Source of the DNA: Oleiharenicola lentus
Lineage (GTDB): Bacteria; Verrucomicrobiota; Verrucomicrobiia; Opitutales; Opitutaceae
Assembly: GCF_004118375.1 (NCBI RefSeq)
Contig: NZ_SDHX01000001.1
Location: forward strand, 372,001-436,000
Direction of reading: 5' to 3'
DNA: 64,000 nucleotides
The translations under genes and the position numbers were made by a program. Within the stretch, counting starts at the first letter, position 1, and every line of letters starts with the position of its first letter. Below the pieces are notes generated by a model that did no database searches, was not told the DNA's origin, and saw only the letters and a program-made list of their open reading frames with translations. Of this stretch, positions 51,240-57,139 are shown one piece after another.

Positions 51240-51956
51240 ATGACTAAACGCGTGAAAATGCCCGACACAACACCAGGCATGGATGGAGGTGCCGCATGCA
51301 TCGGCCGGGTTGTGATCGTCGAGGATCAGCGGCTCGTGGCGGAGTTCCTGCAGTTTCACTGCCGCGACCTGCGGTTGGAGGTTTTGCAGCATGCGACGGG
51401 CTATCGCGAGGGGCTGGCGTCGATCCGCCAGCACCGGCCCGATCTGGTCCTGCTCGACATCTCCCTGCCCGACGGGGACGGCCTCGACCTGGCGCGACAG
51501 ATCATCGAGGAGCAGCCCCGCGTGAAGATTCTGGCCATTTCCTCGCACCACGATCCCTGGACGATGTTGCAGGTCCAGCGCATCGGCATCCATGGCTTCG
51601 TGGACAAGACCGACCAGCGGCCGAACGTCGTCTCGGAAGCCATTCACGCCGTCCTGGGCGGCCGCGTTTTCTACACGCAGATCGTCAATCAATCGAGCGC
51701 GGCGATCCGACGCGACCCGAAGTCCTTTGTGCGCGTGTTGTCGGATTACGAGATGCGCATCCTCTCCATGATCGGCGAGTCCAAGTCGGACGACGAAATT
51801 GCCAACACGCTCAACGTCGCGTCGGCGACGGTGCAGTCGCGCCGGCGGGACATCATGCGCAAGCTGGACATCCACTCCACCCCGAAGCTGATCCACTATG
51901 CGATCGTGAACGGGCTTACGCGGGCGGAACAGCTGGGCCGGAAGAAACCAACCTAG
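51240..51956 (+). CDS. NarL/LuxR-type response regulator
   Basis: About 238 residues. The receiver domain has GRVVIVEDQRLVAEF, the phospho-acceptor Asp in DLVLLDISLPDGDGLDLA and the Lys in HGFVDKTDQ. The C-terminal LuxR-type HTH has LSDYEMRILSMIGESKSDDE followed by IANTLNVASATVQSRRRDIM. Start uncertain: ATG 51240, ATG 51258, TTG 51225 and ATG 51186 are in frame, and an AGGAGGAGC lies at 51207. It is probably the output of the convergent hybrid kinase; their 3' ends overlap by 41 bp. Confidence 0.82.
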   Translation: MTKRVKMPDTTPGMDGGAACIGRVVIVEDQRLVAEFLQFHCRDLRLEVLQHATGYREGLASIRQHRPDLVLLDISLPDGDGLDLARQIIEEQPRVKILAISSHHDPWTMLQVQRIGIHGFVDKTDQRPNVVSEAIHAVLGGRVFYTQIVNQSSAAIRRDPKSFVRVLSDYEMRILSMIGESKSDDEIANTLNVASATVQSRRRDIMRKLDIHSTPKLIHYAIVNGLTRAEQLGRKKPT

Positions 51957-54900
51957 CGCGCAGCGCTGCGATCGACGTCAGGAAACACGGCCAGAGCGTC
52001 TGTAGCTCGGGCCAGCGGCCCTTGGTGGAATTCTCCTCCAGGCGGCGGCACAGCCCGGCGAGCTCTTTTTCGTGGATGAAGTTGAAGCGACCGCAAAGGC
52101 GGTGGGCATAGCGCGCGCCATCGGCGTTGTGCCGGTTCCGGATGGCCTCCTCCAGCAATCCGACCTCTTCCTGCATTTCCGCGAGGTAGAGCGCGACTTC
52201 GTCGGCGAAGCGCACCTGCTTCTTGGTGGCGAGCAGGCGGAGGTTGGCCAAGCCGTCGGAATCGGGGGCCGGTTTCTCCTCCGCGGCCGCCACAATCACG
52301 CGGGCTGCGACCAGGGCCTTGCGGAGGCGATCCGGGGTAACGGGTTTGCCGAGGAAGGCGTCCATGCCCGCCTCGCGGCATTCGCGTTGTTTTTCCGGGG
52401 TGTTGAACGCGGTGGTGGCGAAGATCCGCGCCCGGGCCGAACCGCCGGGCAGGGCGCGGAGGCCCCGGGCAACATCGAGGCCGCCCAGGCCGGGCAGGTC
52501 GTAGTCGAGGAAGACCAGTGCATATTCGTGCCGGGTAGCGAGTGCCATCGCTTCGGTTCCGTCGCCGACGGTATCCACGGCGTAACCGAAGCGGGCGAGC
52601 AGGTCGGCGAGGACCACACGGTTGTATTCCTGGTCGTCCACCACCAGGGCGCGACCGGCGGGAGCGTGCGTGGCGGGAGCCGCGGCGGTCGGCTGCTCGT
52701 CCGGTTCGGGTGCGAGTTGGAGCGGCACGCTGAAGTTGAAACATGAGCCCCGGCCGGGTTCGCTTTCGAGCCAGATGCGCCCGCCCATTTTCTCGGCGTA
52801 GCCCTTGCAAAGTGCGAGGCCGAGGCCGGTGCCGGCCACCCGTCCGCCGCGGGCGGCGGCCCCGCGTTCAAAACGGCGGAAGAGCCGCTGCTTTTCCTCG
52901 GCAGAAATACCCGGCCCCTCGTCGGCGACGGCAAAGAAGACCTCGGTGCGCTCGGGACCGGCCGGCTGGCACCATACGGTGACCTCGACCGTGCCGCGAC
53001 CGGAGAACTTCAGGGCGTTGCTCACAAAGTTGAGCAGGATCTGACGGATGCGACGGGGGTCGCCGCGCAAGTGACGCGGCACGCCCGGGGAGACCGCGAT
53101 TTCCACGGGGATGCGGCGCTGCTCGCTGTCGGCCGCGGTCATGGCCGCCACCGAATCCACCAGGGCGTGCAGATCGAAGGGCCTGGACTCGATCTCGACG
53201 ACACCGGCCTGCATCCTGGAGAGGTCGAGCAGGTCCTCCAGCAGCGAGGCGAGGTGGTCGGCGCAGGCCCGCAACAGGCCGAACTTGCGCTGACTCTCGG
53301 GATCGAGCCCCACTGTTGGCAGGGATTCGGATATGCCGATGACACCGTTCATCGGGTTGCGGATCTCGTGGCTCACGCTCGCGAGAAACTCATCCTTGGC
53401 CGCGTTGGCCTTCACGAGTTCGGCGGTCCGGAGCCGGACGGTGTTTTCAAGTGCCTCCTGCTGGGTGCGACTGCGGCGCTCGCGCACCCGGATGGTCAGC
53501 CACACGCCGGCAGCCAGCAGGAGTCCATAACTGGCGTAAGCTCCCTTGGAGCGATACCAGGGCGGGAGAATGCGGAAGGAGAAAACCGCAGGGATGCTGG
53601 TCTGCCCCGCCGGGTTTACGGTGCGGGCCTCAAGCTGGTAATTGCCCTCGGACAGGTTGGACAGGTCTTGGCTCAGGCGGCGGGAAGGGACGGACCAGTC
53701 GCCGTGGGGCGCAACCCGGGTTTGCACGAGCCAGTGCCGGGCCGACATGGGATCGCCGGTGAAAATGCGAAAGCCCACACGGTGGCGGGAGAATGGAAAA
53801 TCCGCGCCTTCCGGGCGGGCGGGCGGGCTCGAAATCGCCCGGTCCAGATGAATGGACGGAGGGGAAGGGGGCGCGAGTGGAGGCACGCTGGCGAAGTCGA
53901 GGCGCAGCAGACGCTCGGAGCCGCCGACCCAGAGCACGGGTTGGGCGTGTTCCTGGGTAAAGGTGAGTGTTTGCACGAGACCGACAGATTCCAGCGCCGG
54001 AACGTCCAGTTCCATCCAGGTGGCCGAACTGTCGGCGTGGTGGATAATGCGACCCAGGCCTTCCGATTCGAACTCCGTGCCGGGGGCTCGCAGCCGGGTG
54101 AAAGCGACGAGCGTATCCCGGGTGCCGGGGATCGGAGTGGCGAATCGTGGCGAGATGCCGGGCAAAACCAGCAAATCGTGCAGCTGCCGGCTGCTTGGGT
54201 CCGCGAGGAAGACCCGTTCACTGGCAAAAACAAGCAGTTGTGCGGGGGCGTCACCGAAACAAATCTGCCCGCGAGTGGGCAGACCGGTGGTCGGATCACT
54301 CAACCTCTGGGTCTTGCCACTGACCGGATCAACCGTGAACACGCCCTCGCTGGCGGTGCCGACCCAGACCGTCCCTTGTGAGTCTTCAGCGATCCACCGG
54401 CCGAAGCCCGGAATCTGTCCGAATTGCCGCACCGCGAAACTACCGTCCTCCTTCGCGCTCAGCTCGGCCAGGGTGTCTCCCTCGGAGAGGTAATAGGTTT
54501 TCGCCCGGACACGCGAGGCCGTGATGGCATAAACCCCCTTGGCCAGGACTTGATAAATATTGCCGGGTTGTCCTCCCGCCCATTGGTCGATGCCACCATG
54601 CCGGGCGAGCAGCAGCCGGTCGGGGGTCGCGTGCATCCGGGTGTAGCGTTCGTTCAGCTCGGTAACCGGGGCAATCCGGGCGGCTTCGCCGAAGCCGGGC
54701 TTTAGCCGATAGATGGCGTTCTTGTTGGTGAGATAGATTTCCTCGCGGGTGCAGACGAAATCCTGCACGCCGCCTTCGAGCCCATTGCGCTCGGTATGCA
54801 AGGTGGCGGTGCCAGTCGGCTCCACCCGGAAAATGCCGTCGTAGGTCGAGCACCACACGGTGCCATTTGGTAGCCGGTGGAGGGTTTGGATACCGGCGAC

Positions 54901-55785
54901 GGCCGGATGGTCGGAGAGGCTGATCCGGCGCACCAGTTTGCCCGCCGGGTCGATCACAAGGAGCCCGCCGTTGAGAGTGCCGACCAAGATGTTCCCATCG
55001 GGCAGTTCAACGTAGCCGATCAGGCGGTTCGCGACGATGAGCTGCTGAAGTTCCGGCCCGAAAACAGCCTCCGGGGGATCGCCGGGTCGGAAAAATCCCA
55101 GACTGCTTACCACGGTCAGCCCGCGGTCATCGCGGCGCAGTCCGAAGAGGCCTCCGGCAGGCAAATGTTCGGCCGCGATCTCGAGGACGGGACCGGAGGT
55201 CGTCAGGCGATACAGACCGGACTCGAGATGATGAAACCAGCTTTCGCCGCCGAACTTGAACGGGAAAAGCCGGCCCTTCCCCGGGAAGGTCCAGATGCGA
55301 AACCGGGAGCCGTCCCAGCGATAGACCTTCGCGGTGCCGATGAAAAAAACCTGATCCCCCGCCAGGCCGCTGCCCCAGATGTGCTCCACGTTACGCTCGT
55401 CTGCCGGCAGTCGATCCAGCAGAGAGTGATAGTGGAAGCGACCGACCGTTGGTTCGGTGAGATAGCCGATTTCGTTGAGCGCACCTGCCCAGAGCCGCCC
55501 ACCCGGTCCAAACTCGATCGTCCGGAGGGCTGTCAGTTCTTTCGCGGCGTGCACGGTCCAGGATTGTCCGTCGAATACGGCCAGTCCGTTGCCTCCCACG
55601 AGGAGGCGACCCAAGGGATCCTGATGCACGAACCAGTTGTAGGCATAATCGAATCCCATCTGGCGGGGTAGGTAGTGTTCCACCCAGGCCAAGCCGGCGG
55701 TTTGGTCTGTCCACGTGCCTCGCACCGGGCCGGCGATAAGACACGGGAGAAGCAGAATCGGGTATAAAAAGCGTTTAGGACTCAC
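51916..55785 (-). CDS. Hybrid sensor histidine kinase with periplasmic beta-propeller sensor, receiver and Hpt
   Basis: About 1289 residues. Order: signal (VSPKRFLYPILLLPCLIAG); a long two-propeller sensor (about 25-640) with blades such as GRLLVGGNGLAVFDGQSW; a Y_Y_Y-like Ig domain (about 650-730); one TM helix (about 745-765); HisKA with H806 in VSHEIRNPMNGVIG; HATPase with NFVSNALKFS and GTGLGLALCKGYAEKMGG; a receiver with D1094 in ALVFLDYDLPGLGG; and an Hpt-like end with H1228 in YAHRLCGRFNF. Such sensors usually detect sugar oligomers in gut and soil bacteria, but the ligand here is unknown. GTG 55785 has a TCAGGATC Shine-Dalgarno; GTG 55815 is an alternative. Its 3' end overlaps the NarL-type regulator, probably its partner. 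Confidence 0.88.
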   Translation of the reverse strand: MSPKRFLYPILLLPCLIAGPVRGTWTDQTAGLAWVEHYLPRQMGFDYAYNWFVHQDPLGRLLVGGNGLAVFDGQSWTVHAAKELTALRTIEFGPGGRLWAGALNEIGYLTEPTVGRFHYHSLLDRLPADERNVEHIWGSGLAGDQVFFIGTAKVYRWDGSRFRIWTFPGKGRLFPFKFGGESWFHHLESGLYRLTTSGPVLEIAAEHLPAGGLFGLRRDDRGLTVVSSLGFFRPGDPPEAVFGPELQQLIVANRLIGYVELPDGNILVGTLNGGLLVIDPAGKLVRRISLSDHPAVAGIQTLHRLPNGTVWCSTYDGIFRVEPTGTATLHTERNGLEGGVQDFVCTREEIYLTNKNAIYRLKPGFGEAARIAPVTELNERYTRMHATPDRLLLARHGGIDQWAGGQPGNIYQVLAKGVYAITASRVRAKTYYLSEGDTLAELSAKEDGSFAVRQFGQIPGFGRWIAEDSQGTVWVGTASEGVFTVDPVSGKTQRLSDPTTGLPTRGQICFGDAPAQLLVFASERVFLADPSSRQLHDLLVLPGISPRFATPIPGTRDTLVAFTRLRAPGTEFESEGLGRIIHHADSSATWMELDVPALESVGLVQTLTFTQEHAQPVLWVGGSERLLRLDFASVPPLAPPSPPSIHLDRAISSPPARPEGADFPFSRHRVGFRIFTGDPMSARHWLVQTRVAPHGDWSVPSRRLSQDLSNLSEGNYQLEARTVNPAGQTSIPAVFSFRILPPWYRSKGAYASYGLLLAAGVWLTIRVRERRSRTQQEALENTVRLRTAELVKANAAKDEFLASVSHEIRNPMNGVIGISESLPTVGLDPESQRKFGLLRACADHLASLLEDLLDLSRMQAGVVEIESRPFDLHALVDSVAAMTAADSEQRRIPVEIAVSPGVPRHLRGDPRRIRQILLNFVSNALKFSGRGTVEVTVWCQPAGPERTEVFFAVADEGPGISAEEKQRLFRRFERGAAARGGRVAGTGLGLALCKGYAEKMGGRIWLESEPGRGSCFNFSVPLQLAPEPDEQPTAAAPATHAPAGRALVVDDQEYNRVVLADLLARFGYAVDTVGDGTEAMALATRHEYALVFLDYDLPGLGGLDVARGLRALPGGSARARIFATTAFNTPEKQRECREAGMDAFLGKPVTPDRLRKALVAARVIVAAAEEKPAPDSDGLANLRLLATKKQVRFADEVALYLAEMQEEVGLLEEAIRNRHNADGARYAHRLCGRFNFIHEKELAGLCRRLEENSTKGRWPELQTLWPCFLTSIAALRARLVSSGPAVPPA

Positions 55786-55953
55786 GGCGATCCTGATCGA
55801 CGGGAGGTTTATCACGCAAGCCGCTGTCAGGCAAACGACATTCGCACCAGAAATCAGGCTTAGGACAGGAAAGCCGAGCCGGGCTGTAGAGGCTGCATTT
55901 CAGGCGGTTTCCGTCGTCATATTTTTGCCCGGCCAGGCGATATTTGGGACGTT

Positions 55954-56136
55954 ATGAAAATCATCACCACCCTCTTCTGCGGGCTCTCTTCGAGCCTTTG
56001 TCTCAGCCTAGGTCTTGTTCGTTTGGCCCAGAAACTCGATCCGCTTTCCTGGACCGGTCATGAATGGGCTGCGACCGCCCACGGTGCGTCTCTCACCAGC
56101 ATGTGCATTTTCCCAACCCGGCGGGAGTCGGTTTGA
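55954..56136 (+). CDS. Possible 60-residue peptide directly upstream of the YcaO-like gene
   Basis: A short frame beginning MKIITTLFCGLSSSLCLSLG, with a Ser/Leu-rich hydrophobic N-terminus, three cysteines (C9, C16, C51) and a Ser/Thr-containing C-terminus (HGASLTSMCIFPTRRESV). Only a weak ribosome site (GGGA at 55946) precedes it. Its stop codon overlaps the GAGGAG Shine-Dalgarno of the YcaO-like gene, so translation of the two could be coupled. GC3 is about 65% (39 of 60), lower than its neighbours. A precursor peptide for YcaO modification is conceivable; the hydrophobic start also fits a signal peptide or a non-coding coincidence. Treat as a candidate only. Confidence 0.3.
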   Translation: MKIITTLFCGLSSSLCLSLGLVRLAQKLDPLSWTGHEWAATAHGASLTSMCIFPTRRESV

Positions 56137-56151
56137 GGAGCAATCGTCATC

Positions 56152-57051
56152 ATGTTCAGTCTGGCGGCATACCGCTTCCGCGATGTCCTGACCGTAGCCG
56201 GCGGCCCCGTGGAGCGTTTGCAGCTGGCTGACATGACGGTGTTGGGCCGGCGGGCGTTTCTCGCCAATGCCTTTCTGAGGGATGGGCTGGTGGGGCACTC
56301 TTGGCGCGACCAGGTGTTCAACCCGGCACATGGCACCGGCACCGCCGCGTCACCGATGGTGGCGCGCTTCATGGCCATATCCGAGTCCATGGAGCGCTGG
56401 GCCCACTGGCAGTTGCACAATTCTGCCGCGCGATCGCGTTACGGCTTCGACGTGGATCCTTCCAGCAACGGGATGGCTGCTTTCCCGGGACTTTGCACCC
56501 GGCAAGCGAGGGTCGCCGTCTTGCTGGAGGCGACGGAGCGGCACAATCTGCTGCACTGGTGGGAAGGGCATCTGCCGGCGGCCGAGTCTGACAGCCAGTG
56601 GCCCGGAGTGAGCGTGGCGACGATCTGTTCGGAGTTGCCGGCGGTCACCGTGGTGCTTTTCCGTCGCACAGCTGATGGGTTCGTGGCCTATGGCCATGCG
56701 GCGGCACCGGACTTTGCGGGAGCCTGCCGCAAGGCGGCCATCGAGATGGAGCGGCACGCCCTGATCATCGCCAGGTTCGCAGCCTGTCATGCCGGGCGAC
56801 TCACTGACGGCCTGCCCGAGAGCGCGCATCCGATCGAGCGGCGGTGTTTGTTCTTCGCTACCGAGACCGGTCATGAGCTCTTTCTTGAGCGGTTGCGGTC
56901 GGCCCACAAAAAACCTGCTGCTCGACCGAAGCTGGTGTTCGATGGAGCAGTGCCCGGGCCCTGGTCCCGCTACGCCGACGTCTGGCGGGTGGTCTTTGCC
57001 CCGCCCAGCGACCGCTTCCTCGGCGACGAGGAGAACTATTTCTTCTGGTGA
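56152..57051 (+). CDS. Compact YcaO-like protein
   Basis: A 299-residue protein with the ATP-site pattern of YcaO enzymes, which activate peptide amide bonds using ATP in RiPP and thioamide formation. Visible parts: HGTGTAASPMVARFM; an E78-x-x-E81 pair in AISESMERWAHW; SSNGMAAFPGL (104-114); and the ExxER box (E126, E129, R130) in LLEATERHNLLHWWEG. Usual YcaO proteins are 400 residues or more, so this is a short version, and it lacks the Pro-rich C-terminus of azoline-forming members, ending YFFW. A GAGGAG ribosome site lies 11 nt upstream and overlaps the stop of a 60-codon frame. It is divergent from the hybrid kinase and ends at tRNA-Gly. A catalytic role is not proven. Confidence 0.7.
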   Translation: MFSLAAYRFRDVLTVAGGPVERLQLADMTVLGRRAFLANAFLRDGLVGHSWRDQVFNPAHGTGTAASPMVARFMAISESMERWAHWQLHNSAARSRYGFDVDPSSNGMAAFPGLCTRQARVAVLLEATERHNLLHWWEGHLPAAESDSQWPGVSVATICSELPAVTVVLFRRTADGFVAYGHAAAPDFAGACRKAAIEMERHALIIARFAACHAGRLTDGLPESAHPIERRCLFFATETGHELFLERLRSAHKKPAARPKLVFDGAVPGPWSRYADVWRVVFAPPSDRFLGDEENYFFW

Positions 57052-57065
57052 TTATTCACGGAAGC

Positions 57066-57139
<74 letters not shown>

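Follow-up and report, generated by a model that had tools for sequence, protein, structure and literature searches.

A 64,000-nucleotide stretch of the genome of Oleiharenicola lentus (hereafter the window) holds a gene for a YcaO-like protein, a 60-codon frame directly upstream of it and a large hybrid kinase gene on the opposite strand. The question raised by this locus is whether the short frame encodes a precursor for the YcaO-like protein and, if so, what the resulting peptide is for. We addressed it by means of profile searches, structure prediction and comparison with related loci and genomes (numbered L and G, respectively).

The YcaO-like gene (56152..57051, forward strand) runs from an ATG at 56152 to a stop codon ending at 57051 and encodes 299 aa, and the 60-codon frame runs from an ATG at 55954 to a TGA at 56134-56136, as the sequence-only reading had placed them. 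The TGA lies inside TGAGGAG, and the GAGGAG, which from its sequence is the ribosome-binding site of the YcaO gene (56135..56140, forward strand), overlaps the stop codon 11 nt ahead of the YcaO ATG. The ATP-site motifs noticed earlier are all present (E78/E81, SSNG at 104-107 and E126/E129/R130), and the description of a short YcaO with a C-terminus that is not Pro-rich holds as well, the chain ending in ...YFFW. In an alignment of 67 distinct YcaO proteins (L004 and L079 represent one gene) E78 is kept in 67, E81 and E126 in 66 each, and E129 and R130 in 64 each; the aromatic C-terminus has the consensus YFFW, with F297 in 66/67 and W299 in 56/67. The relatives, of about 288-302 aa, further have in common GGP17-19, E78xxERW, S104xNG, E126xxER, WW136-137, E198xxR, ERR229-231, W271 and VWR277-279. 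In an hhalign alignment with E. coli YcaO (E 9e-5, probability 60), E126/E129/R130 correspond to E199/E202/R203, K194 to R286 and E198 to E290, residues which we take to form the ATP site of the E. coli protein. The YcaO of L077 (genome G010) carries A, K, H and A at positions 81, 129, 130 and 198 and may be a non-catalytic or altered YcaO.

The expected match to the YcaO profile PF02624 was found, marginal for the window protein as a single sequence (27.3 bits, cutoff 25.7), and a six-frame PF02624 search of its own genome gave zero matches at E<=0.001. This marginal assignment is settled by the relatives, 56/63 of which match PF02624 at E<=0.01 (best E 4.4e-12), and by the fold. The AlphaFold model has a pLDDT of 93 and a pTM of 0.90 and derives from 63 sequences (alignment A1, 63 of 66 references, with L092, L093 and L097 excluded, and L087, which contains X, excluded earlier). 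Foldseek alone gave zero matches to the model at E<=0.001, with YcaO absent among the best 50, and phmmer and profile searches of PDB sequences did not find YcaO. When the Foldseek candidates were aligned with VIA-align, rows 1-14 were YcaO-domain entries (Z 16.8-9.2) and the next row was unrelated (Z 6.0); they include McbD (16.8), LynD (16.3), M. kandleri YcaO (16.1), 7u58 (15.4), M. jannaschii YcaO (14.8), E. coli YcaO (12.5) and TruD (9.2). The NCBIfam SagD-family model scores 19.8 bits on the window protein, far under its cutoff of 219.25, and matches 45/63 relatives at E<=0.01. A misprediction of the YcaO is ruled out by the PF02624 matches of the relatives, the AlphaFold model and the structural matches. 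On this profile and model evidence, we assign the 299-aa protein as a compact YcaO.

Azoline-forming YcaO proteins have a Pro-rich C-terminus. The window protein resembles the azoline-forming McbD, LynD and TruD in fold (Z 16.8, 16.3 and 9.2), and the tails of its associated precursors mostly contain Cys, but its C-terminus is not Pro-rich and it is shorter than the matched chains, which have at least 361 residues. A TfuA-type thioamidation pair was considered and rejected, TfuA (PF07812) being found in 0/20 carrier genomes; nor was it found in 13/14 controls, while the positive control, M. acetivorans, was detected. TIGR03882, a cyclodehydratase partner and the sole partner model used, was over its cutoff in 0/20 carrier genomes; matches below the cutoff occurred in 7/20 carriers, none of them at the locus, and likewise in 5/14 controls. 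The stand-alone YcaO proteins (E. coli YcaO, the streptamidine family and ItfB) are alike in fold and ATP-site motifs, with TfuA not found and no partner gene recognised, but the window differs from them in its 299 aa, its aromatic C-terminus, its hydrophobic-leader precursor and its kinase linkage. E. coli YcaO thioamidates uL16 directly (PMC13063428), and stand-alone YcaO proteins are linked to amidines in the streptamidine family (PMC8442711) and in ItfB (PMC10352776). Since the E. coli protein thioamidates uL16 directly and TfuA was not found in the carriers, a TfuA-free thioamide is possible, and thioamidation by the window YcaO may be among its reactions.

YcaO matches were found in 67/200 genomes of the host family, 28/273 of the order and 14/387 of the phylum, these samples overlapping, and all 14 carriers of the phylum sample fall within one order. 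A further scan of genome contigs gave 7 loci, from Verrucomicrobiota, Opitutia, Opitutus, Oleiharenicola or Opitutaceae. The comparisons below rest on 68 loci (97 minus the 30 short stretches L008-L037, plus the window), which span 59 of the 67 YcaO-positive family genomes and the 7 genome-contig loci; the YcaO-positive genomes outside this set are G036, G068, G086, G114, G123, G129, G142 and G186.

The 60-codon frame (55954..56136, forward strand) is, by profiles and pN/pS, a precursor peptide gene for 60 aa with a leader of about residues 1-30 and a variable tail with Cys51. It had been described as rich in Cys/Ser/Thr; instead, it consists of a hydrophobic leader and a variable tail, with Cys at 9, 16 and 51. 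Its predicted conservation upstream of YcaO is borne out: a leader profile built on the first ~32 residues matches 62/68 loci, and the window precursor itself at E 3.3e-14 (E 7.7e-20 with the genome profile). As for a frame broken in close relatives, the six loci that do not match (L076, L077, L088, L089, L090 and L093, the last beginning at a contig edge) are not close relatives. All 65 matches of the leader profile at E<0.01 lie on the YcaO strand, and 64 of them directly or at most 733 nt upstream of YcaO; that of L005 extends 4 nt into the YcaO gene. Among 22 order-level loci, eight match at E<0.01, eight more weakly at the same place, and six have no match. L064 carries a second precursor copy downstream of YcaO, and L060 and L096 have two precursor-like genes each, in tandem upstream.

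The precursors have the form M(K/N)..., a hydrophobic GLxSSLLLxxGFxRAA and LDP, followed by the variable tail (alignment A3 comprises 16 precursors). Cys makes up 6.2% of tail residues versus 0.8% of leader residues and occurs in 58/61 tails, several of which have a single Cys, and in 3/61 none is present. The last Cys is preceded by Pro in 32 of these 58; an additional Cys stands four residues before it in 22 tails and three before it in 10, and CX2-4C is found in 35/61. Seven precursors contain tandem cores, five in L007, four in L040, three each in L002, L112, L118 and L123, and two in L052. The cores of a side branch (L076, L077 and L088) are Cys-poor, which suggests that an azoline at Cys is not the sole option. 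By ad hoc rules of our own, the upstream frames of L077 and L088 contain two copies of another, mostly Cys-free motif.

Purifying selection on the frame is observed as well, with a constrained leader (pN/pS 0.36), a far less constrained tail (0.66) and a value of 0.18 for YcaO in the same pairs; these figures are rough, as they were pooled over the 40 most similar pairs, partly overlapping and with YcaO identities of 72-99.5%, and pS is near saturation. The precursor profile matches at E<=0.01 in 64/200 family genomes, namely 63 of the 67 YcaO-positive ones versus 1 of the 133 YcaO-negative ones (Fisher p 6e-46), the latter being G100 with E 0.004. In the four YcaO-positive exceptions (G010, G034, G042 and G056) other short frames with hydrophobic starts occupy the precursor position. 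The congeners G113 and G130 are without precursor and YcaO jointly, both at the locus and genome-wide, and retain the flanking genes on both sides, the kinase, the regulator and a tRNA-Gly (loci L130 and L131); these two loci are natural deletion controls. A chance open reading frame is ruled out by the leader profile, pN/pS and the genome co-occurrence: what lies upstream of YcaO is a genuine precursor gene, conserved and with a hydrophobic leader and a variable tail. Profile matches, the fold, co-occurrence, selection and the tandem cores thus support the suggestion of a coupled precursor and YcaO modifier, and the locus has the RiPP feature of a genetically coupled precursor with a conserved leader and a variable core.

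A permissive (-3,-1) signal-peptide rule accepts 59/62 leaders, no better than shuffled sequences (mean 56, max 61). With a strict rule, A/V/S/T-x-A before A/D/E/Q at positions 20-28, a site is present in 33/62 leaders versus a shuffled mean of 4.8 (max 10), and the window leader is among those without one. K or R occurs within residues 2-8 in 55/62 leaders, a count that stands without a shuffled comparison. On these sequence rules about half of the leaders are likely Sec signal peptides, for which bufferins are a precedent among RiPP precursors, such signals being otherwise rare (PMC12452194).

Upstream and divergent lies the gene of a hybrid histidine kinase (51916..55815, reverse strand) of 1299 aa with a GTG start, in which Pfam and AlphaFold identify a propeller sensor, HisKA, HATPase, receiver and Hpt. 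Its start at 55815 is 138 bp from the precursor ATG, and not about 170 bp as first given. Convergent with it, and overlapping its 3' end, is the gene of a 238-aa response regulator (51240..51956, forward strand) with, by Pfam, a receiver (PF00072) and a LuxR/GerE DNA-binding domain (PF00196). A divergent member of the kinase cluster (single linkage) is the nearest upstream gene of at least 150 aa in 60/68 loci. Of the eight exceptions, three (L092, L093 and L097) start at a contig edge, and the stretch of L066 breaks off within a kinase fragment. In L073 the kinase was called too long and runs into YcaO, in L046 it lies 2 kb away, and a called kinase is missing from L096 (within 1.8 kb) and from the stretch of L059. 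Within 5 kb of YcaO the kinase cluster is present in 67/68 loci and the regulator cluster in 51/68, and no cluster besides kinase, YcaO and regulator lies within 5 kb in more than 12/68 loci (45/68 have 5 kb on both sides). An opposite-strand kinase match was found upstream in 21 of the 22 order-level loci, and in 24/68 loci the next downstream gene of at least 150 aa belongs to the same kinase cluster. The divergent kinase belongs to the same conserved unit as precursor and YcaO, and the locus thereby exceeds what the sequence-only reading had described.

The AlphaFold model of the kinase sensor (pLDDT 91; alignment A2, 40 of 53 sensor references) is a double propeller that Foldseek matches to the periplasmic domain of BT4663 (E ~1e-24), whose ligand, per the title of its structure entry, is heparin/heparan sulphate. 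Reg_prop is over its cutoff in the kinase; Y_Y_Y is over it in L038 and below it in the window. The window kinase resembles the BT4663 propeller hybrid systems in double-propeller sensor, HisKA, HATPase, receiver and Reg_prop, but the DNA-binding domain sits on a separate LuxR-type regulator, to which the signal presumably passes via Hpt, and its sensor is fast-evolving and linked to a peptide gene.

Between the divergent genes of the window, a degenerate copy (ACCAGAAATCAGGC) of an operator-like palindrome ACCT-N6-AGGT (55846..55859), picked by eye from its position and half-site, has its centre ~101 bp from the precursor ATG. In 47 loci the precursor lies 40-400 bp from a kinase called at >900 aa. 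A strict ACCT-N6-AGGT or TACC-N8-GGTA occurs between the two genes in 17 of these, versus a mean of 0.09 (max 2) in random stretches of the loci of the same length, and is absent from the other 30, the window included; these regions also served to choose the motif, and loci that are related do not count as independent observations. From the centre of the palindrome to the precursor ATG there are 98-100 bp in eight loci, 55-57 in six, and 79, 96 and 119 in the rest. The peptide-less G130 retains ACCTGAATTTAGGT upstream of its kinase. As a guess, the palindrome could be a site for the LuxR-type regulator.

Comparison of near relatives reveals a fast-changing segment. In several pairs strong divergence affects the sensor half of the kinase, the precursor and YcaO (in part or entirely), against mostly 80-100% identity in the kinase half and the flanks; the pattern, seen in comparisons between species only, is clear in L043/L045, L040/L007, L007/L002, window/L001 and L038/L039, and weak in L041/L081. 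L043 and L045 share 82-100% per 50-aa block in the kinase half, but 26-54% in the sensor up to residue 700 and 64-70% for 700-800; their precursor tails differ, YcaO is 47-53% identical in its first 60 residues and 80-100% beyond, and the next gene is 98% identical. The DNA identity of their flanks is ~0.8-0.97, dropping to ~0.45-0.6 in between. Between L040 and L007 the regulator is 98% identical, kinase blocks 801-1050 are at 92-100%, the sensor at 26-58% to residue 700 and YcaO at 50-79% throughout. L002 and L007 are two alleles from one MAG, with kinase domains 99%, sensors 45% and YcaO 65% identical; the MAG holds either two strains in one bin or two separate loci.

Across five congeneric genomes the locus kinase averages 46.6% identity in the sensor versus 75.2% in the kinase domain, whereas a paralogous propeller kinase from these genomes averages 57.1% and 62.2%; this contrast points the same way in 10/10 pairs, the pairs not being independent of one another. 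A second paralog is in line with this, having 58-61% in the sensor and 69-80% in the kinase domain in three comparisons, and three G000 regions were dropped as controls because they are not propeller kinases. A partial Mantel test over 50 loci, corrected for kinase and YcaO, revealed no overall link between tail and sensor similarity (r 0.02, reached by 385/999 permutations); in the 26 closest pairs alone, which are not independent, the two are linked (rho 0.62). The sensors of L041 and L081 are 86% identical, yet their tails are dissimilar (0.36). Compared with the peptide-less G113 and G130, the window sensor is 46% and 35% identical (kinase domain 74% and 73%), and compared with peptide-bearing relatives 39-47%; since the sensors of G113 and G130 are equally diverged, sensor divergence is not tied to having a peptide.

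Modifier, pre-peptide, kinase and regulator thus occur together at a conserved locus (precursor in 62/68 loci, kinase in 60/68, regulator within 5 kb in 51/68), a set with a general likeness to agr-type peptide pheromone systems and to comQXPA. With the latter the locus shares a modifying enzyme, a short variable pre-peptide and a protein with a variable sensor and a conserved kinase part, and the window regulator is, like ComA, a receiver with PF00196. It differs in that YcaO stands in the place of the isoprenyl transferase ComQ, in its Gram-negative lineage, and in a kinase that is divergent, hybrid with receiver and Hpt, and equipped with a double-propeller sensor instead of transmembrane helices. 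The fast-changing segment resembles what is reported for comQXPA, where the C-terminus of ComX is most variable, and the N-terminus of ComP is variable compared with its conserved cytoplasmic domain (PMC4008528).

We propose, with a probability of roughly 55%, that signal and receptor are encoded side by side here, the signal being a YcaO-modified peptide pheromone and the receptor the neighbouring kinase. The hybrid kinase, seen in the sequence-only reading as a possible regulator only, may thus be the receptor of the peptide, and the locus would then serve mainly signalling. A fuller version, which we hold tentatively and at somewhat less than even odds, is that of a YcaO-dependent RiPP pheromone with pherotypes in Gram-negative, Opitutales-type bacteria, where an exported, YcaO-modified and hypervariable peptide would be recognised by a propeller hybrid kinase, and modifier, peptide and sensor would pass from lineage to lineage as a specificity cassette between conserved flanks. 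For core chemistry, export, sensing and feedback we infer the following course. Unaided by any E1-like or TfuA protein, the YcaO would bind the precursor and spend ATP on activating an amide of the core backbone; the (P)C motif or a position next to it is the probable site, and a thiazoline, thioamide or amidine would result. The hydrophobic leader would serve export, probably by Sec, the peptide reaching the periplasm and being trimmed there, and the product would bind the propeller sensor of the divergent kinase. A phosphorelay via receiver and Hpt would then reach the LuxR-type regulator, which would bind the palindrome between the divergent genes and raise the expression of precursor and YcaO, besides other targets. 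Two observations, the outcome of the shuffled control for signal peptides and the divergence of the sensor in the peptide-less congeners, lower our confidence in both proposals.

The same congeners bear on another reading, in which the product is a RiPP effector, such as an antimicrobial, that responds to the environment: the kinase would sense a glycan or other cue and switch on the YcaO-modified peptide. That G113 and G130 retain kinase and regulator without the peptide, with the sensor equally diverged, agrees with such a role, as does the match of the sensor fold to the glycan-sensing BT4663. However, an effector finds no widely conserved export or immunity gene here, given that no other cluster lies within 5 kb in more than 12/68 loci; in the locus kinase divergence is far greater in the sensor than in the kinase domain, which is not the case for the two paralogous propeller kinases, and in 24/68 loci a further kinase-cluster gene comes next downstream. 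We consider an effector rather unlikely, although it deserves serious weight.

In a further reading the YcaO-like protein does not modify peptides and has, for example, a YcaO fold but no catalytic activity, and the short protein would be an unmodified secreted or membrane peptide. The ATP-site positions of the YcaO-like protein are nearly invariant (n=67) and it is coupled to a precursor family that includes tandem cores, which makes this reading improbable despite the marginal single-sequence Pfam score, the null six-frame search, the missing partner protein and L077 with its lost equivalents of E81, E129, R130 and E198. A metal-binding or stress RiPP, an exported Cys peptide chelating copper or another metal in the manner of bufferins, could explain the hydrophobic leader and the paired Cys (CX2-4C) of 35/61 tails, but we judge it about as improbable, as the tails are hypervariable, several have a single Cys and 3/61 are Cys-free, and no further widely conserved neighbour lies within 5 kb. 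Bufferins give a precedent for Sec-exported RiPPs (PMC12452194), and their Cys-bearing precursors with an export-type N-terminus likewise adjoin a modifying enzyme; they are MNIO-modified and Sec-exported, whereas the window has a YcaO, a variable core and a less sure Sec signal.

The proposed signal-receptor pair would link a YcaO enzyme to cell-cell signalling and give a propeller hybrid kinase a candidate peptide ligand. Furthermore, the locus offers dozens of natural sets of precursor, enzyme and receptor, with 1 to 5 cores, in which to study the action of a stand-alone, TfuA-free YcaO on a peptide and the evolution of specificity in modifier, signal and receptor. Among the matches listed from the open-licence literature, none was recognised by title or abstract as treating YcaO peptides or pheromone peptides of Verrucomicrobiota, or this locus, which is weak evidence of novelty.

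Some minor features of the neighbourhood were also observed. In L069, L071, L072, L075, L086, L091, L092, L093 and L095 a protein of 74-80 aa is encoded downstream of YcaO; it has no Pfam match (L072 searched) and is followed by a short (~250-270 aa) protein of the kinase cluster, in which, for L072, a HATPase domain but no sensor was recognised. About 2 kb with several small open frames separate kinase and YcaO in L046 and L049. Directly behind the YcaO gene of the window lies a tRNA-Gly (TCC) at 57066-57139, and the same tRNA was seen in 10/10 further loci checked, including L130 and L131, which are without precursor and YcaO.
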